From a virus, in IMG/VR virus record IMGVR_UViG_3300035181_000656, positions 1 to 32,391 of that record: a DNA stretch of 32,391 nucleotides. The stretch is one strand, 5' to 3'. The position numbers were made by a program, and so were the translations under genes. Within the stretch, counting starts at the first letter, position 1, and every line of letters begins with the position of its first letter. Shown here in pieces: positions 7,645 through 22,764 of this stretch. Under the pieces are notes generated by a model that saw nothing but the letters and a program-made list of their open reading frames with translations, was not told the DNA's origin and did no database searches.

Positions 7645-7922
7645 TTGCTCTCTCCTTGTATTGCATAGAGTGGTGCAAAGCGGTCATAGCCTGCGCCCTC
7701 TGTCAGAGTAAACATTCGCGCGTTTTGCAATTGGCTTATGTTGGCGACAACACCAACACCCTGCGCGGATTGCAGGATGGCAAGTGCTTCTGTGATTACC
7801 TTCGGTGTAATTTCCTTGGTGTAGTTGCCTTGATCGTCTTTTGCCATTACGCGATTGATAGACAGTGCGCGATGGATAGCGGCAACATCGGAGGCGGATA
7901 GCAGGTAGTGGGTGGGGGTCAT
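7641..7922 (-). CDS. Accessory protein, paralogue of 6906-7235
   Basis: 93 residues, start and stop both in ATGA overlaps. It opens MTPTHYLLSASDVAAIHRAL, has TEALAILQSAQGVGVVANI in the middle and ends PLYAIQGESK. These blocks match the protein at 6906-7235 in order and spacing except for a shorter last section. The pair, separated by one gene, looks like a local duplication of a two-gene unit followed by divergence. Function unknown. Confidence 0.7.
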   Translation of the reverse strand: MTPTHYLLSASDVAAIHRALSINRVMAKDDQGNYTKEITPKVITEALAILQSAQGVGVVANISQLQNARMFTLTEGAGYDRFAPLYAIQGESK

Positions 7923-8167
7923 GGCTTATCCCAGTTCTTGTCAAAGTCATACATTGCAGCGTTCGGAGTGTCACCAAAACCCGCAACGCCAACTTGCAGA
8001 TCGTCACCAAACAGGGCGCACCGCCGATTACCGTCCTTGGATAGCTTGGGTTTGAACACTACACTTGGGCGCATCAGTTCCAATGCGGCGTCTTGCCAAG
8101 AGTACTGCACCATACTCGCTGCGTGACAGATGGCATTTGCTGCCATATTTGAATCTTCTGCGTTCAT
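7919..8167 (-). CDS. Conserved small phage protein
   Basis: 82 residues in an ATGA-linked chain, with AAGGAGAGC before the start. The C-terminal two thirds read PSVVFKPKLSKDGNRRCALFGDDLQVGVAGFGDTPNAAMYDFDKNW, a pattern (KP.LS.DG..WCALYG..L..GVAGFG.TP..A..DFD..W) that I have seen recur in short proteins of many phages. It has the look of a small beta-alpha domain related to HicB-like folds (a GFGDTP turn followed by a helix), but no partner toxin is present. Function unknown. Confidence 0.72.
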   Translation of the reverse strand: MNAEDSNMAANAICHAASMVQYSWQDAALELMRPSVVFKPKLSKDGNRRCALFGDDLQVGVAGFGDTPNAAMYDFDKNWDKP

Positions 8168-8547
8168 CCTTGCTCTCCTTGTTGTGCAGACATTGCTTTG
8201 TCAATCACGTTGCGCAGAGTTCCCGGCAAGCACAGCAGACGAATGCCGCTGCTGAATGTTGGGTTACTTGCTTCGGCGTCTAGCCAATCCAACCGCGCAG
8301 CATCCACGCTCTGTGCTTTCAGTGCGTCGAACTGTTCTTGCAACTTGAATAGCTTGTTTTCACTACTCCGCTGGTTCTCATTCGCAGCGATGCAGGAATC
8401 TTTCCACTCGTCACGGTCTTGTGTCAGTGCGTCGAGTTCGGCAATGAGGTCGCGGATAGCGTCTGCTAAATGCTCTGGCACATACGTCTTGCCCCTCGTG
8501 TAAACACGATCAGCCAGCGCAAGATATTCTTCGCGTGTCTTAGTCAT
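8164..8547 (-). CDS. Coiled-coil Ea22-like accessory protein
   Basis: 127 residues with GGGAGCAAGC before the start. Residues 1-80 are mostly helical with heptad character (EELxALAD, AIRDLIAELDALTQDRDEW, NKLFKLQEQFDALKAQ). Then comes DAARLDWLDAEASNPTF, a segment common to shuffled Ea22-like phage proteins, and a short C-terminal part LPGTLRNVIDKAMSA. Both ends are in ATGA overlaps. No function is assigned. Confidence 0.65.
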   Translation of the reverse strand: MTKTREEYLALADRVYTRGKTYVPEHLADAIRDLIAELDALTQDRDEWKDSCIAANENQRSSENKLFKLQEQFDALKAQSVDAARLDWLDAEASNPTFSSGIRLLCLPGTLRNVIDKAMSAQQGEQG

Positions 8548-9122
8548 GCTTGCTCCCTTTGCTCAATCTCAGCACATACGATGCAGAGCAAGGTAGCTTG
8601 TACGGCCCTAGAAGCGGCCCAAGCAGCGTCCCAAGCAGCGCCCCAAGCACCGGTGTCCCTAGCAGCGTCTCTAACAGCGGCACTAGCAGCGTCCCTAGAA
8701 GCGGCACTAGAAGCGGTCCAAGCAGCGGTCCAAGCGGTGCCCCTAACAGCGGCACTAGCAGCGGCACTAGCAGCGGCTCTAGAAGCGGTCCAAGCAGCGA
8801 CCCTAGCAGCGGCCAACTCCTGAGCTGTTGCAAAACCATTGGCGTAAAGCTCTGCCACATCTAGAGCAGAGATGCTTCTCGAGGCAGTCATCAAGTGCTG
8901 GACACTACGTGCGCAATCAACGGCGAACAGACGCATTTCACGATGATGGCCATCTACTGCGCGTAAGCACCACAGAGCATCGTCTAGTCCGTTGCTTTCG
9001 AGGATGGTCGTAACCGCTAATTGTTCATCGTCGGCTTTGGTCTTGCCTAGGTTACCGAGTAACTTTGACCAGCCGTCAGAGCAGGGTGAATGTGCGCGGA
9101 TTTTGTTTAATGTAGTTTTCAT
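8544..9122 (-). CDS. Alanine/tryptophan-repeat phage protein
   Basis: 192 residues from the ATG at 9122 (AGGAGAATGAC upstream), not from 9200, which lies inside the previous small gene. Residues 1-105 form a conserved-looking domain: CSDGWSKLLGNLGKTKADDEQ, ILESNGLDDALWCLRAVDGHHREMRLFAVDCARSVQHL and ALDVAELYANG. The rest is a run of short repeats (WTASRAAASAAASAA, SAAVRDAARDTGAWGAAWDAAW) predicted to be one long alanine-rich helix. Proteins with this first domain and a variable number of A-A-W repeats are widespread in phages, sometimes called putative immunity proteins, without proof. It ends IEQREQA in an ATGA overlap. Confidence 0.75.
   Translation of the reverse strand: MKTTLNKIRAHSPCSDGWSKLLGNLGKTKADDEQLAVTTILESNGLDDALWCLRAVDGHHREMRLFAVDCARSVQHLMTASRSISALDVAELYANGFATAQELAAARVAAWTASRAAASAAASAAVRGTAWTAAWTASSAASRDAASAAVRDAARDTGAWGAAWDAAWAASRAVQATLLCIVCAEIEQREQA
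8583..8820 (-). repeat. Degenerate trinucleotide-phase repeat coding Ala/Trp/Arg
   Basis: About 240 bases of degenerate tandem repeats on a 12- to 15-base unit with GCAGCG-like cores. It encodes the alanine-rich half of the 192-residue protein. Such tracts expand and contract by slippage or recombination, so the length may vary between related phages. Confidence 0.75.
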
Positions 9123-9123
9123 G

Positions 9124-9264
9124 TCATTCTCCTGTCTTTGGTTGTGTGATGCCGATTTCAAGGTTCTCCCGCTCAATGATTGTCCCGGATATGCAGGCAT
9201 TCAGTACTTCAATCAACTGCTCTTGCAGTGTTTCGGGTAGTAGTTTCGTTTCGAGGTTGGTCAT
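9124..9264 (-). CDS. Small accessory protein, 46 residues
   Basis: The ATG at 9264 lies in an ATGA overlap with the upstream gene. The protein starts MTNLETKLLPETLQEQLIEV and ends ENLEIGITQPKTGE; it is helical with leucines in heptad-like positions. Its last codons contain the AGGAGAATGA ribosome-binding site of the next gene, one base before that gene's ATG. It fills the gap between two well-supported genes and is very probably real. Function unknown. Confidence 0.65.
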   Translation of the reverse strand: MTNLETKLLPETLQEQLIEVLNACISGTIIERENLEIGITQPKTGE

Positions 9265-9940: not shown

Positions 9941-10402
9941 CTATAGCTTCTCAGGGTGGTCATGCCTCAGGTGCCGCAAGGCCTCGTCCTCATCCGACCA
10001 CCACTGCTTTCTACAGTGAAGGCAGGTGCGTAGAGCATTGGTAAGGCTGTACCCCTCAATCGTGTAGTGACCCCGGAAGTCAAGAGGTATGGGTTTAGGA
10101 ACGGATGCCTCATTTTGTATCCTTCTGGAGAACCCCGCGACCTGAGTACCTGTAGTAATTGGCTCAGGCCCCGGGGCAGCGGGTAGACACATCTTGTCGT
10201 AGACCTCAAGGTACTTCTCAATGAAGTGCAGAGCCTTCTGTAAGTCCTGCTTGCCGTTCTTCTTACGCGCTCGCATGACGTACTTGGTGATCTGCCCCTC
10301 GAAGTAGTTAAGCCCGTGCTCAACTACGATGTCCCAGTGCTGGTACGCTACCTCAGTACCGCCGTAGTGAGCACCTGCCACTTGCTTTTCATTTGCTGAC
10401 AC
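9941..10402 (-). CDS. DUF3310 protein with C-terminal zinc-finger-like tail
   Basis: 153 residues from the GTG at 10402, overlapping the thymidylate-synthase-like gene by 14 bp. Residues ~11-70 (HYGGTEVAYQHWDIVVEHGLNYFEGQITKYVMRARKKNGKQDLQKALHFIEKYL) are a clear DUF3310 domain, proposed in the literature to be a nucleotide-kinase-related module and very common next to phage nucleotide metabolism genes. The C-terminus holds CLHCRKQWW...LRHLRHDH, a C2H2-like zinc-finger pattern. As the last gene of the modification/nucleotide operon it may act on deoxynucleotides or their regulation. Confidence 0.85.
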   Translation of the reverse strand: MSANEKQVAGAHYGGTEVAYQHWDIVVEHGLNYFEGQITKYVMRARKKNGKQDLQKALHFIEKYLEVYDKMCLPAAPGPEPITTGTQVAGFSRRIQNEASVPKPIPLDFRGHYTIEGYSLTNALRTCLHCRKQWWSDEDEALRHLRHDHPEKL

Positions 10403-11387
10403 TATGTTCTCGCCTTTCTGTCCACTCTGTGAACGCTAGTTTCCAATCACACTCAACGATATCGTTCATGGTCTCTTTCCAGACTCGAGACCCAGCCTTA
10501 CGGGCGTCGTACGTAGTCTTGAGGGGAGAGACCACAGTACGGAAGAAGTTAGTCTTCCATGGGATGGAAAATTTACCGAGTGCCATGTCTTCGCAGTCAG
10601 TCAGGAAGTCCAGGTAGTTCTCCCCCACGGCGAGCAGAGGTACCGTGAACCGAGGGTACCGCCAGTACTCGTCAATCACTGGAGGATTTTCGAGAAAATC
10701 CTTCGCGCATGGGACTTCCTTGTACGCATGGAAGTTGTTGCTGACTTGACGATAAGTGCCGACACCGACGCCGATAGCAGCGGCCATGAGCTCCTGGAGA
10801 ATACTAAAATGCACGGCGTTGGCCCCGTACGCACCCCAAAGGGCATCATTGCTACGGCAGCAGACCGTCATGCCTAGTACTCGGTGCCCGAACGCATTTC
10901 TACGACAGTCGAAGTAGATGTGAGTGTTACAGGGGCGATCTTTCTTGCTGATAGCCAAGTCCAACTCCGCGCTCCACATCTGCATGACGCACTGCCGAGA
11001 ATCTGGATTTCTCCTGAGTTCCCCCACGATCTCCGTGATCTGGTCTAGGGCAAAGGCTTGCCTCCAGCGGTATCCGTAGGCACCGTGGATCTTCCCATCT
11101 GGTTCTGAGTACTCGGCCATTCGGGCGTTGTAGGGGAGAAGAAACGAGCTATTGCTTCCTCCCGCGAGCATCCAAATAGATTCGAGCAGATGGAACACAG
11201 GGTTGGCGTCACGCTTTGCATTGAAGAGTACCCGCTGAGTGGGGTACAGGTACTCAGTAATAACTGGCCCCTGCGCGACCCGTACAGGACCCGCTCGAGA
11301 CTCCTCATCAACTCCCGCAACCTTAAGCCACTGGAATCCATCGCCGAGCGCGTGGTTGACATTCTTAGCTATGATTACTCTGGTCAT
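10389..11387 (-). CDS. Thymidylate synthase homologue (possible dUMP hydroxymethylase)
   Basis: 332 residues from the ATG at 11387 (AAGGAGCTCCTCG upstream); a longer frame to 11567 runs inside the upstream gene. The catalytic Cys lies in RPCNTHIYFD (C153), followed by MTVCCRSNDALWGAYGANAVHFS (about 173-195), equivalent to the canonical QRSxDxxLGxPFN block; N190 probably matches the Asn that selects a uracil base. SNNFHAY provides the last conserved block. Ordinary thymidylate synthase transfers a methyl group from methylene-THF to dUMP; phage relatives make 5-hydroxymethyl-dUMP. The two cannot be told apart by eye, but the neighbouring genes favour a role in making a modified thymine precursor. 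Confidence 0.85.
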   Translation of the reverse strand: MTRVIIAKNVNHALGDGFQWLKVAGVDEESRAGPVRVAQGPVITEYLYPTQRVLFNAKRDANPVFHLLESIWMLAGGSNSSFLLPYNARMAEYSEPDGKIHGAYGYRWRQAFALDQITEIVGELRRNPDSRQCVMQMWSAELDLAISKKDRPCNTHIYFDCRRNAFGHRVLGMTVCCRSNDALWGAYGANAVHFSILQELMAAAIGVGVGTYRQVSNNFHAYKEVPCAKDFLENPPVIDEYWRYPRFTVPLLAVGENYLDFLTDCEDMALGKFSIPWKTNFFRTVVSPLKTTYDARKAGSRVWKETMNDIVECDWKLAFTEWTERREHSVSK

Positions 11388-11784
11388 CGAGGAGCTCCTT
11401 AATTTTGGGTTCTGGCTTCCAGTAGCCGGGTCCTTTTTGCAGTTTACCATCAATAAACAACGCGGACCCATCTGCCTGGAGCTTAGATGCGTTGCTGTCC
11501 ATGATGATCTGGAGCACTTGCTCGATGGGGATACCCCAGCGCAAGGACTCGCTAGCGCAGTAGACAATGGTGTCCCCCAGCCAGTCAGCCATCATTACCT
11601 GAGCGTTCTCAAGCCCGCGCTCATCAAGCATGTTCTTGATGTCAGCGCCTTCGTCTAGTTCGTTGGCAATCATGTTCCTGAACTGATGCAGACGCGCAGC
11701 CTTAGCCTCCACGTTGTGGGGAATGGTCTCCATCTTGTACATGTCATTGAACGCAGGAATGCGTTCGGAGAAGAAGTTACTCAT
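11365..11784 (-). CDS. MazG-like nucleotide pyrophosphohydrolase
   Basis: 139 residues, AAGGAACTTAT before the ATG. The helical core reads AARLHQFRNMIANELDEGADI (acidic metal-binding helix), then MADWLGDTIVYCASESLRWGIPIEQVLQIIMDSNASKLQADG, and a tail GKLQKGPGYWKPEPKI. The E..DE and WLGD acidic helices and the SN-SKL..DG segment are typical of the all-alpha NTP pyrophosphohydrolases found in phages. It would hydrolyse a (d)NTP to the monophosphate and pyrophosphate. Beside a thymidylate-synthase homologue it may remove a normal nucleotide (for example dTTP or dUTP) or supply dUMP. The substrate is inference. It overlaps the next gene by 23 bp. Confidence 0.8.
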   Translation of the reverse strand: MSNFFSERIPAFNDMYKMETIPHNVEAKAARLHQFRNMIANELDEGADIKNMLDERGLENAQVMMADWLGDTIVYCASESLRWGIPIEQVLQIIMDSNASKLQADGSALFIDGKLQKGPGYWKPEPKIKELLDDQSNHS

Positions 11785-11840
11785 ATAAGTTCCTTAGAGT
11801 TGTTGATAAGAATACTAGACCTCGTGGGCTTGCCCTTAGC

Positions 11841-12698
11841 TCATTTGGGCGGGTAGTTGTTCCGGGCATGTCCGCCCTCATGTACTCGGATATACTTGTC
11901 GAACTCGCACATCACATTCTGCATGTCCTGCATGTGGATGTCTCCCACATAGCTAGCCACGTATGGCATAACCTGTTTATGAGCGGTTTGTAGGGCTTCA
12001 GAGAAGCCGCTGGGCGTTACTTTGTGCCCCCAGTACCGGGTAAGCCCGCGCAAGCTGCCCGGGCCGTGTGCAGCCCATGAGTGCCAGTCCGGAGCCACGC
12101 GGAGGGGGTGCCCCTCGGTATTCTTAAGGTCAGCTACGACCTGAGCAGCGAGGAACGAGCCCAGACCATCGATCTCGGTCAGCCACCTGAACACCAAAGC
12201 GCAGTCCATGGGTTTAGCATCCAGCCACCCAGTCCATAGTATGGACTCCTCTTTAGCCCTAACAGCGGCTACCACATGGTCAATCACGTAGTCCACCTTG
12301 TCCATACTGCGACCGCAGGTGCTGATCGTGTAGGCGTTTCCCCAGATCGCTACTCCCTCGGCTCGGGTGAATTTAAGCTGGTCTTTGACGCGAGCCAAGT
12401 CGCCAGTCTGTACAACATCCCCAAGGCGGTCAAGTGTAGATATGCGGTTAACCATGCGAGCAAGAACAACAACCCAAACAGGGGCATCAACACTGGAATA
12501 AGTACGCGAGTTGCGGATATACCGAGTAACCTTGTCATCTTCGCGATGTACATTACAGAACCTCGTAGTCGCCAGCACAGGGTCCACAGTCCAAGGGGCT
12601 GGCACCCCGGACTCTTTACGCATTCGGATAGACTCTCGCTCATTGATCCAATAAGTTAAGTCCATGGTGCGTGGGTATTCAATTAAGACATTAGACAC
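11841..12698 (-). CDS. 5-hmdU DNA kinase helical-domain / aGPT-PPlase-like protein
   Basis: 285 residues from a GTG at 12698 (GAGG eight bases upstream), overlapping the glycosyltransferase gene by 8 bp. The N-terminal part contains DLTYWINERESIRMRKESGVPAPWTVDPVLATTRFCNVHREDDKVTRYI (residues 13-61), which matches the WINERE.I...KE.G.P.PWT.DPIL...RFCNVrREDDrVTrWI pattern of the helical domain in phage 5-hmdU DNA kinases and alpha-glutamyl/putrescinyl-thymine pyrophosphorylases. Further blocks are EIDGLGSFLAAQVVADLK and APDWHSWAAHGPGSLRGL. No P-loop is present, so it is the stand-alone helical form. In characterised systems this family processes pyrophosphorylated 5-hydroxymethyluracil in DNA on the way to hypermodified thymine. 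Confidence 0.8.
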   Translation of the reverse strand: MSNVLIEYPRTMDLTYWINERESIRMRKESGVPAPWTVDPVLATTRFCNVHREDDKVTRYIRNSRTYSSVDAPVWVVVLARMVNRISTLDRLGDVVQTGDLARVKDQLKFTRAEGVAIWGNAYTISTCGRSMDKVDYVIDHVVAAVRAKEESILWTGWLDAKPMDCALVFRWLTEIDGLGSFLAAQVVADLKNTEGHPLRVAPDWHSWAAHGPGSLRGLTRYWGHKVTPSGFSEALQTAHKQVMPYVASYVGDIHMQDMQNVMCEFDKYIRVHEGGHARNNYPPK

Positions 12699-13470
12699 AG
12701 TTAGTCCTCGCCTTCTTCCAGTAAACTGTCACGTCGGTACGCTCACCTCCGCCCCATGCGCCCTTGGTCACCTTCTTAGTGACTTTGACCACCCCGGGGT
12801 GGAGCTCGGCCAGCTTGTGAGCATTAGCCGCTTGGAGCTCGGGGGTACGGAAGTGGGAGCAACCTCCCACCGCGCCGGAGCCGCCCGCTTGGTTGTGAGC
12901 AAACTCATTCATAACCATGTTGTCGTATCCCCTCTCAAGAAGGGATAACGCTACGTGGAAGTCTTCCATGACCTCCATCTCGTCAAACCGGATGCCGTGT
13001 TCCTTAAGGGGGCCAGAGCTGTAGCCGAGCACCCGCATGATGCGAGTGTTGTACAGATACTCTTCAGTATTCCGGTTAGCGCCCTCACGAGCAGCGAAGC
13101 CCACATGGGCTACACGGGAGTCTTCACAGCCACGAAGAATCCGCTCCATCTCTATGAAGGCGTGAAGCAACTCACCACTCTGCAGGTCTCGCAGCTTGGT
13201 GCGGTCATCGTCACGGCGCTTGAAGAACAGTAGGTCGTCGTCCACCATGCAGAATGGCTCGTCTTCTCCTACAAGATTGTCGAGGATGTACTGGCGTGTG
13301 GGGGCGATGGTGAGTATCCCCGGAGGAAGCACTACAACGCTCTCATGCCCATGATACATACTAGACTCACGACACTGCACTACCAGAGTGACGTCCAACC
13401 CCACTGCGGACAGCGTCTTTTTGGTGACCTGATTGCCAGATCGACCAAGTGTGGGTATAAATATCTTCAC
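12691..13470 (-). CDS. GT-A-fold glycosyltransferase resembling TAGT family
   Basis: 259 residues from a GTG at 13470 with AGGAG seven bases upstream. It opens MKIFIPTLGRSGNQVTKKTL, has VVLPPGILTIAPTRQYILDNL (46-66) and a metal-binding DDD in FCMVDDDLLFF (D77-D79), and later MEVMEDFHVALSLLERGYDN. This is the plan of GT-A transferases and best fits the TET/JBP-associated glycosyltransferases (TAGT), with an IPT.GR start, an R-Q-x-I-L-D helix before the DDD and ED-F near residue 165. Such enzymes attach sugars to modified bases in phage DNA. No TET/JBP oxygenase lies nearby, so the acceptor would have to come from the 5-hydroxymethyl-uracil route. It is next to and translationally coupled with the aGPT-PPlase-like gene. 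Confidence 0.8.
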   Translation of the reverse strand: MKIFIPTLGRSGNQVTKKTLSAVGLDVTLVVQCRESSMYHGHESVVVLPPGILTIAPTRQYILDNLVGEDEPFCMVDDDLLFFKRRDDDRTKLRDLQSGELLHAFIEMERILRGCEDSRVAHVGFAAREGANRNTEEYLYNTRIMRVLGYSSGPLKEHGIRFDEMEVMEDFHVALSLLERGYDNMVMNEFAHNQAGGSGAVGGCSHFRTPELQAANAHKLAELHPGVVKVTKKVTKGAWGGGERTDVTVYWKKARTNCV

Positions 13471-13486
13471 ATTTGTCTCCTAATGG

Positions 13487-13514
13487 AGTCTCACCCGCCG
13501 TAGCGGGTGAGACT
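13487..13514 (-). terminator. 12-bp hairpin between two operon genes
   Basis: AGTCTCACCCGC (13487-13498), loop CGTA, GCGGGTGAGACT (13503-13514): a perfect 12-bp stem between the gene ending at 13536 and the GTG at 13470. There is no T-run, so partial termination, RNA processing or 3'-end protection of the first gene's mRNA are all possible. A second GGCGGGTGAG lies at 13522-13531. Confidence 0.55.
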
Positions 13515-13535
13515 TGATGCGTGGCGGGTGAGTGA

Positions 13536-13976
13536 TTAGTCGATGGATTCTTCGACTGTCGCAGCAGCCAAGTCAGCCTGTGCGGCATCAGCGGCGGCAT
13601 CCACGTGCTTCACTTTCTTGGCCTTGGCTTCCTTAGGAGCCTTGGCAGGGCGCTCCTGCTTCACGATCAGGGTAGGGTTGTACCCCTCGATAGCGATGTA
13701 GCCGTGAGCTGCATCGTACACCAAGTCGGGAGTCACGACGCCAGCGGTCAGTGCTTCGTCGCAAGTCTGACCATCCTTGTACAGGGCGAAGCGATTAAAC
13801 GCCTTGCTACCTGAGCGCTTCGGGTTTGCGGGAACCAGCAGAGTGATCTTAGCAGTCAGGGGTACACCCTTCACACCACGAACACCAATCACAGCAGCTT
13901 TGCTGGATTCCGACGCATTTTTGATCACACCTTCGGCAGCGACTGCTGCACCCGAAACTTTGTCTTTCTTTGCCAT
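13536..13976 (-). CDS. Conserved phage protein, first of modification operon
   Basis: 146 residues, start at 13976 with AGGAGCCATAA upstream, after a promoter with 5' hairpin. A Lys/Ala-rich N-terminus (MAKKDKVSGAAVAAEG) precedes a conserved-looking core KITLLVPANPKRSGSKAFNRFALYKDGQTCDEALTAGVVTPDLVYDAAHGYIAIE (about 43-97), then a Lys/Ala/Glu-rich tail. The core (NPKR.GS.S..RF.LY..G.TV.e.l.AG....dl..d...G.I.I) recurs in many phage genomes without assigned function and looks like a small nucleic-acid-binding fold. First place after the promoter and a hairpin behind it imply high expression. Confidence 0.75.
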   Translation of the reverse strand: MAKKDKVSGAAVAAEGVIKNASESSKAAVIGVRGVKGVPLTAKITLLVPANPKRSGSKAFNRFALYKDGQTCDEALTAGVVTPDLVYDAAHGYIAIEGYNPTLIVKQERPAKAPKEAKAKKVKHVDAAADAAQADLAAATVEESID

Positions 13977-19858: not shown

Positions 19859-20274
19859 TTCTTGACTCCTTGCTTAGAAAGTTTGTAAACTGGAAACTTG
19901 CCCACGCCGGGCACTTCAACGCCAGCATCCCAGCGCTCTTTAACAGCCGCGCGTCCGATACGCTTTTCGAAGAACTCCATCGAGTCCGTCTCCTTAGCGT
20001 ACTGCCAGACCTTGGCCCAATCCTGCACCACCGGGGCCATAGTCGGCGCGGGCAGTGTAAATATCGCTTCTCCACCCCCAGTGGCGGAAATCTGCTGCTT
20101 AAGCATCTGCTCAATCAGCTTGGCTTCACACGCAGACTCCTGAGTTTTGAGTGCTGCGCTCACCTTGTCAGCGGCCAGTCTCTTCTGCTTAGTGTCCCAG
20201 AAGTGGTCGGCCAGCTTGCCAAGTTCTGTGGCTGAGAGTATCTCAGTCTCAAGGTACACTTCAATGGTGCCCAA
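19855..20274 (-). CDS. Conserved phage replication-block protein
   Basis: 139 residues from a TTG at 20274 with AGGAGACATAA upstream; no better start exists. The N-terminal two thirds are helical (LGKLADHFWDTKQKRLAADKVSAALKTQE). The C-terminal block VQDWAKVWQYAKETDSMEFFEKRIGRAAVKERWDAGVEVPGVGKFPVYKLSKQGVKK has the dW..f..yi.....f.ll.kR....a..e..e.g..vPGv..f....ls pattern that I associate with a widely conserved phage protein encoded beside SSB-like genes. Function unknown; it may be a replication or recombination helper. It ends in a GTGA overlap. Confidence 0.7.
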   Translation of the reverse strand: MGTIEVYLETEILSATELGKLADHFWDTKQKRLAADKVSAALKTQESACEAKLIEQMLKQQISATGGGEAIFTLPAPTMAPVVQDWAKVWQYAKETDSMEFFEKRIGRAAVKERWDAGVEVPGVGKFPVYKLSKQGVKK

Positions 20275-20503
20275 TTATGTCTCCTGCAATAAGCTCAAGC
20301 ACGGGCGTCGCCATAGTGACAGGTCCCGTAGAATCGAGCATGTGGGTGTTGTGAAGGAACGGAATGAGATTAGGCCCGACAGGCTCGTAATTCGTATCCG
20401 CAATGCGTATGTCTTGGAAGGACATACTGCCGCCCGGTGGAGCTGGCTCGTATAGCACGTGGAGGAAGACTCCGGTGCTGTGTTCAAACAGGTGTTGTCG
20501 CAT
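20261..20503 (-). CDS. Small protein, first of the replication operon
   Basis: 80 residues from the ATG at 20503 (AAGGACCTGACA upstream), 15 bases after the 5' hairpin of its promoter; the frame to 20551 covers the promoter and is not a gene start. It reads MRQHLFEHSTGVFLHVLYEPAPPGGSMSFQDIRIADTNYEPVG and ends TMATPVLELIAGDIIGHH; a beta-rich acidic small protein with no recognised domain. It overlaps the next gene by 14 bp. Confidence 0.6.
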   Translation of the reverse strand: MRQHLFEHSTGVFLHVLYEPAPPGGSMSFQDIRIADTNYEPVGPNLIPFLHNTHMLDSTGPVTMATPVLELIAGDIIGHH

Positions 20504-20518
20504 TGTCAGGTCCTTGTT

Positions 20519-20550
20519 GCGCCGGGGGCGGCGCGTTGTGCATTGTAGCA
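20519..20550 (-). promoter_or_regulatory. Extended -10 promoter with 5' hairpin
   Basis: Minus-strand TGCTACAAT at 20550-20542; seven bases later a perfect stem GCGCCG/CGGCGC with a CCCC loop on the mRNA strand (20534-20519). It is placed to drive the nine-gene replication operon 20503 to 14084, including polA and the nucleases. Confidence 0.7.
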
Positions 20551-20568
20551 TGGGCGGCTGGGTCAGGA

Positions 20569-20766
20569 CTAGGACAGGTCGTCCCGGTCGTACGGGTGGC
20601 GCGGCATGGGCGGCACAGTACCCAGCAAGGGCGGCTGTGACGTGTCAGATGGGGCCATAGGCGGCCTCTGAAGCCCCGGTAAGGGGGTAGTAGCCTGCGG
20701 GCCCTGTAGCGGGCCGTACAGGGCCTTGGAGAGCGTGTCAGTCAGCCCCAGCTTTTCCTTGTTCAT
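20569..20766 (-). CDS. Small proline-rich protein
   Basis: 65 residues starting in an ATGA overlap, with GAGGTGAAGAA upstream. About one residue in five is proline (LPGLQRPPMAPSDTSQPPLLGTVPPMPRHPYDRDDLS), so most of the chain is probably disordered. It is the last gene before the replication-operon promoter. Function unknown. Confidence 0.55.
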   Translation of the reverse strand: MNKEKLGLTDTLSKALYGPLQGPQATTPLPGLQRPPMAPSDTSQPPLLGTVPPMPRHPYDRDDLS

Positions 20767-21035
20767 TTCTTCACCTCGTAGGTCAGTGTGACGTACGACA
20801 ACGTCACTGTGAATTCATCGTCGTGTGCGAACCTCAGCTCCCGCGCTTTCGGCCAGCTGAGGTACGATGGGGACGCCCCAGTGTCCGTGGTGTCAGGCAG
20901 CAGGGCGAACCCCACCGTGTTGACAAGAACGACCTTACGGGGTACGTTCAAGTACTTGTGACTCTTGTTGCTAGCAACAAGAGTCACTGTGGTACCGACC
21001 TTGATAGCCCGCCTGAGGTCAGCTAGGGACTTCAC
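20763..21035 (-). CDS. Small unknown protein
   Basis: 90 residues from a GTG at 21035 in a GTGA overlap with the upstream stop. The sequence begins MKSLADLRRAIKVGTTVTLV and alternates beta strands to the end (VTLSYVTLTYEVKK). An SH3-like or OB-like beta barrel would fit, but there is no motif to confirm it. Function unknown. Confidence 0.6.
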   Translation of the reverse strand: MKSLADLRRAIKVGTTVTLVASNKSHKYLNVPRKVVLVNTVGFALLPDTTDTGASPSYLSWPKARELRFAHDDEFTVTLSYVTLTYEVKK

Positions 21036-21298
21036 GCGTCCACCGTGGCAGAGTTGGCGAGCAACGGACCGTTCACGCCCTCGTCCATAGCGGCGGGGAC
21101 CATAGCTGCGTTGCTCTTGGCAGTCTGACTCACCTCTTCAGAGATCACTCGGAACACGCGACTCAGCGCTCCGCTGCTCAGGAACACCTCCTGCTTGCCC
21201 GTGGGGCCTTCCAGGGTGATGGTACCAACCATCTCGTTCGGCTTGTAGCCAGCGTAGGAAGTTTGCCTCTCAATACGCACAGCTTTAATCGTCATCAT
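21032..21298 (-). CDS. Small unknown protein
   Basis: 88 residues; the ATG at 21298 has GAGGGG eight bases upstream. Beta-strand sequence comes first (MMTIKAVRIERQTSYAGYKPNEMVGTITLEGPTGKQEVFLS), then a helix (LSRVFRVISEEVSQTAKS) and a flexible tail. No known domain. It ends in a GTGA overlap with the next gene. Confidence 0.6.
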   Translation of the reverse strand: MMTIKAVRIERQTSYAGYKPNEMVGTITLEGPTGKQEVFLSSGALSRVFRVISEEVSQTAKSNAAMVPAAMDEGVNGPLLANSATVDA

Positions 21299-21302
21299 GG
21301 CA

Positions 21303-21518
21303 TTAACCCCTCGTTGATTTGAAAATTGTTACTCCGCCCCCAGCACTGCGAATCACTCCAGCTAGGGTCTTCAGCTCTTGGTAAGGTCCTGTTTTCAGTA
21401 CCTTACTATCCTTGTCAGTGACAAGGATGCACTTGATGTCGTCCTTGGGTACTGGCGGAGGCGTACGGTCAGCCTCCGCCAGCAACGTACCCACTGGAAA
21501 GGGCGCGTAGGACCTCAC
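21303..21518 (-). CDS. Small unknown protein
   Basis: 71 residues from a GTG at 21518 with GGAGATGATAGC upstream, overlapping the previous stop (GTGA). It has a proline-rich start (MRSYAPFPVGTLLAEADRTPPPVPKDD) and a small alpha/beta-type remainder (IKCILVTDKDSKVLKTGPYQELKTLAGVIRSAGGGVTIFK). Function unknown. Confidence 0.6.
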   Translation of the reverse strand: MRSYAPFPVGTLLAEADRTPPPVPKDDIKCILVTDKDSKVLKTGPYQELKTLAGVIRSAGGGVTIFKSTRG

Positions 21519-22339
21519 GCTATCATCTCCTCTACGGCGGTCCAGAGACCTTGGTTAATCTTGTTGGAAGCCGCAATGGCTTCCACACCGCGCACCCGGC
21601 TCTTACGCCCCGTCCACACGGACTTGGTTTCCCAGCCACCCTGCATAACGTTCTCCTGTACGCAGTTCAGCACGGACCAAGCGCTCAGGCCGTCGTCCAC
21701 GGGGCGGCGTACCTTCAGCAAGTCCACAGCCTTGAAGGGCTTGATGGCGTCGCCGTAGCGGAGGCTCATGGCAGTCTCGGCTAGTACATTCCGCTGGTCG
21801 TAGCTCAGATCAACAGTCTTGAAGACTTCGATCTGATTGAACATGCGGGGTAGGTCTTCCTCGATGATTCGGCTGGCAACGTCTATCACCATGCCAGTGC
21901 TGCGCCCCTTGGAGTGAATAATGCGGTGGCTCGCAATCGACTTACCCACGGTAAGTCCGTTGCTGCACACCAAGCGGAAGTACCCAGCACTCAGGGTGTA
22001 GGCGCTGGTACCATCGTGTGCGTTGGTGAGAATCACCTCGGCAGTACCGTCGGCAGCGCCGCCGTACTTGTTCAGTGAATCGCCACGCCGCAAGCGCAGG
22101 GAGTGGCGGCAGAATCCCTCCTTGCCCGGGACCAGCGTCTTGTTCTGGGTTGCCTCGAACACGCTCCAGCCGCTGTCCAGCAACTTCTCGAGAGGCTCGA
22201 TCGTGGGTATGTATTCGTAGCGGGGGCCGCGAGTGGGGAGCACTTCGGACTCAGTAGCAAAGACTGCGGGGCAGTACTGGCGGATAGCTGTCAAGGCCAG
22301 AGGACTACCTGTCCGCAGGGTACGCATTTGTTTAGACAT
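21515..22339 (-). CDS. DUF932-like protein
   Basis: 274 residues from the ATG at 22339 (GGAAGGGGGCC upstream); the frame to 22417 overlaps a real small gene. RYEYIPTIEPLEKLLDSGWSVFEATQ is the y..i.t.e.le.L...Gw....a.Q opening of DUF932 proteins, followed by FCRHSLRLRRGD, VILTNAHDGTSAYTLSAGYFRLVCSNGLTVG and ALSAWSVLNCVQENVMQGGW. The combination of rH..R.R, NsHDG..a..l..G.fR.vCsNGl and a terminal N..QEn....G matches that family, which occurs in phages and plasmids and may relate to DNA metabolism or anti-restriction. The function is not established. Confidence 0.8.
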   Translation of the reverse strand: MSKQMRTLRTGSPLALTAIRQYCPAVFATESEVLPTRGPRYEYIPTIEPLEKLLDSGWSVFEATQNKTLVPGKEGFCRHSLRLRRGDSLNKYGGAADGTAEVILTNAHDGTSAYTLSAGYFRLVCSNGLTVGKSIASHRIIHSKGRSTGMVIDVASRIIEEDLPRMFNQIEVFKTVDLSYDQRNVLAETAMSLRYGDAIKPFKAVDLLKVRRPVDDGLSAWSVLNCVQENVMQGGWETKSVWTGRKSRVRGVEAIAASNKINQGLWTAVEEMIA

Positions 22340-22502
22340 TACCGGCCCCCTTCCGTACATTCTTGGCAGGGAGTTTGATCTCCATACGACGCGCCTCAAC
22401 GGCTTTCTTGTTGTCATGGTTCCGCGCTTTATGCGAAACCTCGCGGCTTGGCTTAACCAAGCCTTGGGCGATCAGTTGATCACGGAGAGAAGTACCACTC
22501 AT
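22332..22502 (-). CDS. Small basic protein resembling DUF2058 N-terminus
   Basis: 56 residues; the ATG at 22502 has AAGGAGCTCGTC, an excellent ribosome-binding site. MSGTSLRDQLIAQGLVKPSREVSHKARN matches the SLRDQLLKAGLV.ekk..ka opening of DUF2058 (YaiL-like) proteins, with the rest a lysine/arginine-rich helix. It overlaps the DUF932-like gene by 8 bp and is the first gene after promoter 22559. It may bind nucleic acid. Confidence 0.7.
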   Translation of the reverse strand: MSGTSLRDQLIAQGLVKPSREVSHKARNHDNKKAVEARRMEIKLPAKNVRKGAGNV

Positions 22503-22529
22503 GACGAGCTCCTTAAGTTACTAGGGCAT

Positions 22530-22567
22530 GGACTAGCACCGCGCTGGCCCATGTAGGCATTGTAGCA
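22530..22567 (-). promoter_or_regulatory. Extended -10 promoter with 5' hairpin
   Basis: Minus-strand TGCTACAAT at 22567-22559, preceded by TAGCC as at 9930 and 23419. Eight bases later GGGCCAGC pairs with GCTAGTCC around a 5-base loop (22550-22530), with one mismatch and one G-T pair. It is placed to drive 22502 to 20569. Confidence 0.65.
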
Positions 22568-22593
22568 GGCTACAAAGTCACTGCAAGTGCCCA

Positions 22594-22764
22594 CTACCCA
22601 CCCAGAAGCGCGGTGATTACGGACTTGGAGTCGTCGGGCAGGTCCAGTAGGATGCGTTCGCGGGGTTGTAGTTCCACAGTACTCGCTGTGGATGGAGCCA
22701 TGCACTCAGCAAGCAGGTGCTTGGAGTGTAGTGTCTCGGGCGGAACTAAGCTGATGCGGGTCAT
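22594..22764 (-). CDS. 56-residue protein resembling the N-terminus of T4 endonuclease V
   Basis: The ATG at 22764 is in an ATGA overlap with the upstream gene. MTRISLVPPETLHSKHLLAE closely follows the MTRINLVPVEEL-DQHL-AEYRE opening of pyrimidine-dimer DNA glycosylases (DenV). In DenV the N-terminal Thr2 is the catalytic amine and Arg3 and Glu23 are needed. Here T2 and R3 remain, but after residue 20 the sequence diverges (CMAPSTASTVELQPRERILLDLPDDS) and ends at 56 instead of ~138 residues. It is either a much shortened relative or an unrelated protein with a similar start. Confidence 0.6.
   Translation of the reverse strand: MTRISLVPPETLHSKHLLAECMAPSTASTVELQPRERILLDLPDDSKSVITALLGG

Follow-up and report, generated by a model that had tools for sequence, protein, structure and literature searches.

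Which DNA modification does a phage produce if its putative deoxyuridine monophosphate (dUMP) hydroxymethylase is encoded next to a glycosyltransferase, in the place where related phages carry a 5-hydroxymethyldeoxyuridine (5-hmdU) DNA kinase? This question is raised by an operon on the minus strand (positions 9941-13976) of the IMG/VR record IMGVR_UViG_3300035181_000656, which was analysed over its entire length of 32,391 bases and is termed “the window” here. From 5' to 3' on the minus strand, the operon comprises a gene for a 146-amino acid protein, a TAGT-type glycosyltransferase, a stand-alone PF18723 protein that we call HEL, a MazG-like nucleotide pyrophosphohydrolase, a thymidylate synthase (TS) homologue and a DUF3310 gene (Table 1). 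The operon is no artefact: it is widespread, forms a coherent unit and represents a variant of thymidine hypermodification with a predicted chemistry. We consider it likely that the cassette directs thymine hypermodification by the 5-hydroxymethyluracil route, with a glycosyltransferase replacing the 5-hmdU DNA kinase.

An original prediction, made from the sequence of the window, had named the genes for TAGT, HEL, the MazG-like protein and the TS homologue, and all four are found on the minus strand. They had been described as adjacent and overlapping, which is true for TAGT/HEL (8 nucleotides) and MazG/TS (23 nucleotides), but not for HEL and MazG, which are separated by a gap of 56 nucleotides; TS and DUF3310 overlap by 14 nucleotides. 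The residues C153 and N190 assigned to the TS homologue are exact when numbered from the likely start codon, ATG 11387, which is preceded by AAGGAG and yields a protein of 332 amino acids. The MazG-like protein is recognized by PHROG 671 only and has no Pfam or NCBIfam match. HEL contains the proposed pattern in the form WINERE...PWTVDP...RFCNVHREDD, and the profile checks suggested for HEL and TAGT gave scores above the curated Pfam cut-offs. The label aGPT-PPlase fared less well: PF18723, formerly aGPT-PPlase clade 1, is now named after the helical domain of 5-hmdU DNA kinase, and a pyrophosphorylase role is not borne out. The PHROGs matched by the cassette genes are phrog_842, phrog_2396, phrog_671 and phrog_5131. 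The gene order TAGT-HEL-TS was found again in dozens of independent viral contigs, and thus, the arrangement is not due to chance.

The TS homologue is a candidate dUMP 5-hydroxymethylase. Its residues C153, R178, S179, D181, N190, H220 and Y222 (Met = 1) are invariant across 64 cassette homologues, which accordingly retain the Cys for catalysis and the Arg, Ser, Asp, His and Tyr that bind dUMP. The base-selecting position is Asn in all 64 hydroxymethylases, regardless of the partner enzyme, and corresponds to the uracil-selecting Asn177 of Escherichia coli ThyA. The nearest solved relative is a CMP hydroxymethylase with Asp at this position; the T4-type dCMP hydroxymethylase signature likewise features Asp, where the window has Asn190. 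The NCBIfam ThyA equivalog yields at best 62 bits, as opposed to the 175 bits required, and none of the NCBIfam thresholds for true thymidylate synthases is reached. In one whole-record search the TS homologue was present in 50/50 records. The protein is 40-43% identical to the hydroxymethylases of M6/PaMx11-type Pseudomonas phages, whose modified base is believed to arise from 5-hmdU (PMC6449724). Together, the invariant Asn and this identity support a pathway that would run via hydroxymethyluracil rather than hydroxymethylcytosine, in agreement with the glycosylation route originally put forward.

The assignment of the glycosyltransferase to PF20691 is based on its score and on the DDD metal site. 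DDD77-79, D170, GG202-203 and RT208-209 are invariant in 38 relatives, and a profile search revealed no relative of TAGT in the PDB. As originally predicted, neither a 5-hmdU kinase (PF18748) nor a TET/JBP oxygenase is detected in the window. The Tet_JBP profile (PF12851), which does detect phage Nigel as a positive control, finds nothing in the window, the Manatee Spring phage, phage LuckyBarnes or any of 48 related viral records. Moreover, neither the window nor its TAGT-bearing relatives, terminally repetitive ones among them, gave a match to PF18748 or to the M6 gp54-type kinase. The window itself is probably a fragment of a phage genome, since it lacks terminal repeats and since no capsid, portal or tail gene can be named among its identified late genes, which include a terminase. 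Yet, nine TAGT-bearing relatives that appear complete, as judged by ends that overlap or form exact direct repeats (G008, G013, G022, G024, G034, G036, G038, G041 and G042), also are devoid of Tet_JBP, PF18748 and M6-kinase matches. The absence of kinase and TET/JBP is therefore a real feature of this cassette class and does not result from the incompleteness of the window.

The relationship between TAGT and the kinase becomes apparent upon comparison of 109 non-redundant HEL loci, collected from viral contigs and isolates. The gene adjoining HEL codes for TAGT in 66 loci, for a P-loop 5-hmdU kinase (M6 gp54, PF18748) in 29 and for a GT-B-like protein in nine, proportions that stem from a sample drawn by similarity to the HEL of the window and are not population frequencies. 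In the other five loci, including Microbacterium phage Kauala, the gene in this slot has no profile assignment. TAGT and kinase never occur together (0/109, about 18 expected under independence), which corresponds to a nominal P of 3e-16 for sequences that are related rather than independent, and whole-record searches place TAGT and kinase matches in separate records. In 58 of the 66 TAGT loci, no more than 250 bp separate the transferase gene from HEL. A homologue of the amino-acid:DNA transferase gp51 of phage M6 is found in 13/29 kinase loci versus 0/75 glycosyltransferase loci (P 6e-9), the window being one of the latter, and in 8/13 versus 0/46 if only loci with at least 4.5 kb upstream are counted. 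This restriction to kinase loci is expected if the enzyme needs a phosphorylated base, which a glycosyltransferase pathway would not make. A scan of genome contigs with HEL produced two matches only, neither of which is informative on the partner.

Two annotations in the kinase slot deserve mention. M6 gp54 (L082 3686-4249) is labelled terminase small subunit by RefSeq and phrog_800, yet it matches PF18748 and thereby belongs to the 5-hmdU kinase family; the label looks wrong and spreads through this PHROG. In phage Kauala, gp53 (L092 1368-1973) is a P-loop protein (GYPGSGKST) encoded directly upstream of HEL and is a candidate for a divergent kinase.

A tree of 65 HEL sequences calls for no fewer than 11 changes of partner, the lowest possible number being 2 and the shuffled mean 23. 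Well-supported sister HELs have different partners: kinase and GT-B-like in L055/L056 (support 100/100) and L049/L071 (100/93), kinase and TAGT in L039/L041 (100/99), and TAGT and GT-B-like in L019/L023 (99/92). Within these pairs the neighbours stay homologous (helicase, HEL, TS and mostly DUF3310), whereas the slot gene differs. The partner exchange is therefore a gene replacement inside a fixed operon, and it happened repeatedly.

The constant companion of these partners is HEL. Its AlphaFold2 model is all-helical (pLDDT 95, pTM 0.90), and neither Foldseek against the PDB (E <= 0.001) nor a profile search returned a match or a credible relative, respectively. Upon alignment of the Foldseek candidates, the phage 5-PmdU glycinyltransferase PUGT ranks at the top, with 216 aligned residues and a Z of 10.4; an archaeal 8-oxoguanine glycosylase, Mag1, AlkA-type enzymes, NTHL1 and a queuine salvage enzyme come next. 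MjOgg, Mag1 and NTHL1 reach Z 8-9 against the predicted model. A segment of HEL, GLGSFLAAQVVADLKN, resembles a helix-hairpin-helix, and a nearly invariant Asp195 lies 24 residues past its second Gly; invariant polar residues include R12, C39, N40, R43, D46, D181 and K259. In BFVD the HEL fold forms part of a 637-amino acid protein of Bacillus phage SP10 named 5-hmdU DNA kinase. Overall, the fold is predicted to be DNA-glycosylase-like and of the base-flipping type. Since HEL accompanies kinases and glycosyltransferases alike, and since a predicted 5-hmdU-making enzyme is present in nearly every locus, the best explanation for a protein of such a fold is probably that of a reader, which would present the 5-hmdU base to the transferase; this is the least certain of our assignments.

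A sequence of events consistent with the gene content can be outlined as follows. The TS homologue would hydroxymethylate dUMP to 5-hydroxymethyl-dUMP, as suggested by its family, active-site residues and relatives. The MazG-like protein probably shapes the deoxynucleoside triphosphate pool and might help to hold dUTP and dTTP low and dUMP available. 5-hmdU would then be taken up into phage DNA, as has been proposed in the literature for M6-type phages, and TAGT would transfer a sugar from a nucleotide-sugar donor onto the hydroxymethyl group. Finally, HEL may bind DNA and flip or present 5-hmdU to the transferase of the respective operon, either kinase or glycosyltransferase. The most likely product appears to be a base-J-like glycosylated 5-hydroxymethyluracil, which would shield phage DNA from nucleases.

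The GT-B-like proteins and their neighbourhood provide hints at the sugar. Families A and B, combined in a joint profile, weakly match GlgA-type GT-B glycosyltransferases (E 1.6e-4), and individual members hit Glycos_transf_1 or Glyco_transf_4 with scores under the cut-off. Family C has no database match and no PDB relative by profile search, and its AlphaFold2 model is of low confidence (pLDDT 55) and too poor to use. The family may nevertheless comprise glycosyltransferases, an inference strengthened by the location of its L023 and L107 members near ADP-heptose genes. In six non-redundant glycosyltransferase loci, four with TAGT (L011, L012, L015, L019) and two with family C (L023, L107), relatives of HldE domain 1, GmhA and HldE domain 2 are arranged in a row downstream of the hydroxymethylase, with GmhB next in row in L023 and L019. 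The heptose families are the top NCBIfam match for every gene scanned in these rows, with all scores below the equivalog cut-offs. Such genes occur in 6/53 glycosyltransferase versus 0/9 kinase loci, a difference not significant on its own (P 0.58). The phage-encoded ADP-heptose genes suggest that heptose may be attached to phage DNA. Moreover, the sister loci L019 and L023 keep the heptose genes while TAGT is exchanged for family C, which suggests that the two transferases may use the same donor. No sugar-supply genes are seen in the window, so that the host, or else the portion of the genome that is missing, would have to provide the donor.

Further genes adjoin the transferases in individual loci. 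L080 harbours an NAD-dependent epimerase/GDP-mannose dehydratase-type gene (7711-8682) directly upstream of TAGT. In L066 (3324-5063) TAGT is fused to a radical SAM/SPASM domain and lies between HEL and TS, and in L089 a separate radical SAM/SPASM gene is located near HEL and TAGT; in these two loci the sugar might be further modified by radical chemistry.

The swaps and the sugar genes raise the broader possibility that 5-hmdU serves as a platform, where the same hydroxymethylase and HEL would cater for a kinase, a TAGT or a GT-B-like enzyme, and where the ADP-heptose of some lineages would lead to hexosyl- or heptosyl-5-hmdU. We give this extended scheme about even chances. If it holds true, kinases would lead to amino-acid-derived bases and glycosyltransferases to base-J-like DNA in phages. 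With a glycosyltransferase located where related phages have a kinase, the DNA decoration looks like an exchangeable module.

Several considerations weigh against these interpretations. The TAGTs whose products are known use cytosine-derived bases as substrates (PMC13216743, PMC13390438), and an activity on uracil-derived bases is therefore an extrapolation. The sequences show the gene content, the active-site residues, the mutual exclusivity, the repeated exchange and the lack of TET/JBP and kinase in apparently complete relatives, whereas the activities of the enzymes, the identity of the sugar, the succession of steps and the function of HEL are inferred for all members of the class. The loci were sampled through HEL, as stated above, and the P-loop protein in the Kauala slot is missed by PF18748, indicating that divergent kinases can escape detection. 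The Z scores of about 9-10 for HEL fall into a range where, as the alignment tool cautions, the arrangement of helices alone can produce a match, though the list of matching proteins is consistent. Finally, the Manatee Spring phage MW202897 (L083), which has a circular 40-kb genome, encodes a TAGT directly beside a uracil-type hydroxymethylase, together with an HD protein and DUF3310 (19998-22688), and HEL was not found in the 22.7 kb read. HEL may thus not be needed for glycosylation.

The action of TAGTs with known products on bases derived from 5-hydroxymethylcytosine (hmC) (PMC13216743) also is an argument for a T4-like cytosine route, in which the TS homologue would be a dCMP hydroxymethylase and TAGT would glycosylate hmC. 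The closest solved structure is indeed a CMP hydroxymethylase, and the announcement of phage LuckyBarnes labels its homologue a predicted dCMP-hydroxymethylase (PMC6588365). That annotation is not supported by the sequence, since the base-selecting residue of LuckyBarnes is Asn, as in the window and all 64 homologues, whereas the CMP enzyme has Asp. Asn is shared by M6-type phages, where the modified base derives from 5-hmdU, and the same hydroxymethylase family serves thymidine-type kinase cassettes; we regard the cytosine route as unlikely. A different concern is that HEL itself might build the final group, acting as a PUGT-related transferase on the sugar or the hydroxymethyl group, with TAGT working before or after it. 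PUGT is the best structural match of HEL, and HEL possesses many invariant polar residues. Its partners, however, are chemically unrelated (kinase, GT-A and GT-B-like enzymes), and the occurrence of the fold within the SP10 protein named as a kinase fits a shared DNA- or base-binding function better, which leaves this possibility rather doubtful.

Given that the window, a fragment of 32 kb, has no terminal repeats, it might also stem from a phage with ordinary amino-acid thymidine hypermodification, whose kinase and amino-acid transferase genes lie outside the fragment and whose TAGT is supplementary. This is very unlikely: no kinase lies near any TAGT-HEL locus, the apparently complete relatives lack it genome-wide, gp51 homologues are missing from all glycosyltransferase loci, and the position adjoining HEL, where kinase loci carry the kinase, is occupied by TAGT in the window. 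Equally, phages often encode glycosyltransferases, some of which target envelope glycans, such that the enzyme could modify a host envelope component or a protein and adjoin the cassette by chance. Its proximity to HEL, its mutual exclusivity with a DNA kinase and the link of PF20691 to DNA glycosylation render this explanation very improbable. Glycosylation of 5-hydroxymethyluracil hence is the reading we prefer.

Around the cassette, Pfam identifies a DNA polymerase A, a PD-(D/E)XK exonuclease and a DEAD-type helicase upstream. Homologues of the 146-amino acid protein (>40 bits) occur in 33/66 TAGT loci, 2/9 GT-B-like loci and, weakly, 2/29 kinase loci, and in L057 the helicase appears to include a segment that resembles this protein. 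Between its gene and the TAGT gene lies a perfect 11-bp hairpin without a T-run (13488-13513; GTCTCACCCGC-TACG-GCGGGTGAGAC, minus strand). Elsewhere the window encodes a repetitive protein rich in alanine and tryptophan (8544-9200, phrog_18326) and a phage protein with a papain-family (C1) cysteine protease domain (1129-2190).

Table 1. Coordinates and profile matches of the operon genes and of selected features in related loci (window positions, unless a locus is given).
Feature	Position	Strand	Remarks
Gene for 146-amino acid protein	13536-13976	-	directly upstream of TAGT; no Pfam or PHROG match
TAGT-type GT-A glycosyltransferase, 259 amino acids, GTG start	12691-13470	-	PF20691 59.7 bits (curated cut-off 27.5); phrog_842 E 3e-43
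HEL, stand-alone PF18723 protein, 285 amino acids	11841-12698	-	PF18723 135.8 bits (curated cut-off 25)
MazG-like nucleotide pyrophosphohydrolase, 139 amino acids	11365-11784	-	phrog_671 E 1e-12
TS-superfamily dUMP 5-hydroxymethylase candidate, 332 amino acids	10389-11387	-	PF00303 68.9 bits; phrog_5131 E 4e-95
DUF3310 gene	9941-10402	-	PF11753 27.9 bits; downstream neighbour of cassette in most loci
Family C slot proteins	L023, L057, L107, L229		E-x-L-x-A-G-L-P stretch as in many GT-B enzymes
Heptose genes	L023 12305-14697; L019 9429-11787

The cassette bears on several published observations. According to a 2019 paper, there were no reports of glucosylated 5-hmdU from phages (PMC6449724), and a 2024 list of phage uracil modifications does not name it (PMC11550810). 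Solitary TAGTs are considered potentially novel transferases in a 2026 survey, which lists them for 288 out of 753 genomes of phages that have such enzymes (PMC13216743). For many of these TAGTs the cassette provides a candidate substrate and partner, and it suggests what the hitherto unexplained PF18723 protein may do. The predicted new sugar adducts on DNA, in particular heptose, could affect restriction and modification-dependent defence. The original prediction had considered the gene combination undescribed. This is only partly correct, since one sentence in a 2022 paper notes it for pelagiphages of the HTVC023P type (PMC9599517); the combination is not interpreted there, and the accessible portion of that paper contains no statement that a transferase stands in for the kinase and proposes no mechanism. 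In the papers covered by our search we found no description of the exchange between kinase and glycosyltransferase; earlier mention of the gene combination in Lee 2021, Iyer 2013, Lee 2018 or Wen 2024 is conceivable.

The closest known systems include the thymidine hypermodification cassettes (Lee et al. 2018, 2021, as cited in PMC6449724 and PMC11946847). The route via 5-hmdU and DNA kinase has been described for M6, ViI and phiW-14. The window shares with M6/PaMx11, Salmonella ViI, Delftia phiW-14 and Bacillus SP10 a dUMP-hydroxymethylase homologue with the same active site and a PF18723 protein, and with M6-type phages also the DUF3310 neighbour and a nearby DNA polymerase A. It differs from the M6/ViI type in lacking homologues of the 5-hmdU DNA kinase and the amino-acid:DNA transferase, and in carrying TAGT in the place of the kinase. 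A cultured carrier of the same gene set is available in Brevibacterium phage LuckyBarnes (NC_047851; PMC6588365), where a TS homologue, two TAGTs and HEL stand in a row and no kinase or TET/JBP was detected in the genome. In contrast to the window, LuckyBarnes has two TAGT copies, its TS gene is located upstream rather than downstream, and its hydroxymethylase bears a C-terminal extension.

TAGT glycosyltransferases also feature in the TET/JBP-TAGT cytosine systems. In the cassette, however, the hydroxymethyl group would be made on the nucleotide by a TS-like hydroxymethylase, and TET/JBP is lacking in the window and the relatives searched. In T6-type phages TAGT is held to add a second glucose to glucosylated hmC (PMC13216743, PMC13390438). 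The gentiobiosyl-hmC system of T-even phages thus combines the same glycosyltransferase family with a TS-superfamily hydroxymethylase, yet its TAGT acts on glucosyl-hmC, whereas the hydroxymethylase of the window is of the uracil type and no alpha- or beta-glucosyltransferase is found among its 30 open reading frames scanned. Base J of kinetoplastids is beta-D-glucosyl-hydroxymethyluracil, for which JBP1/2 oxidise thymine and JGT adds the glucose. The predicted product of the window would belong to the same class, glycosylated 5-hydroxymethyluracil, but the phage would arrive there by a dUMP hydroxymethylase route and with an unrelated cassette.

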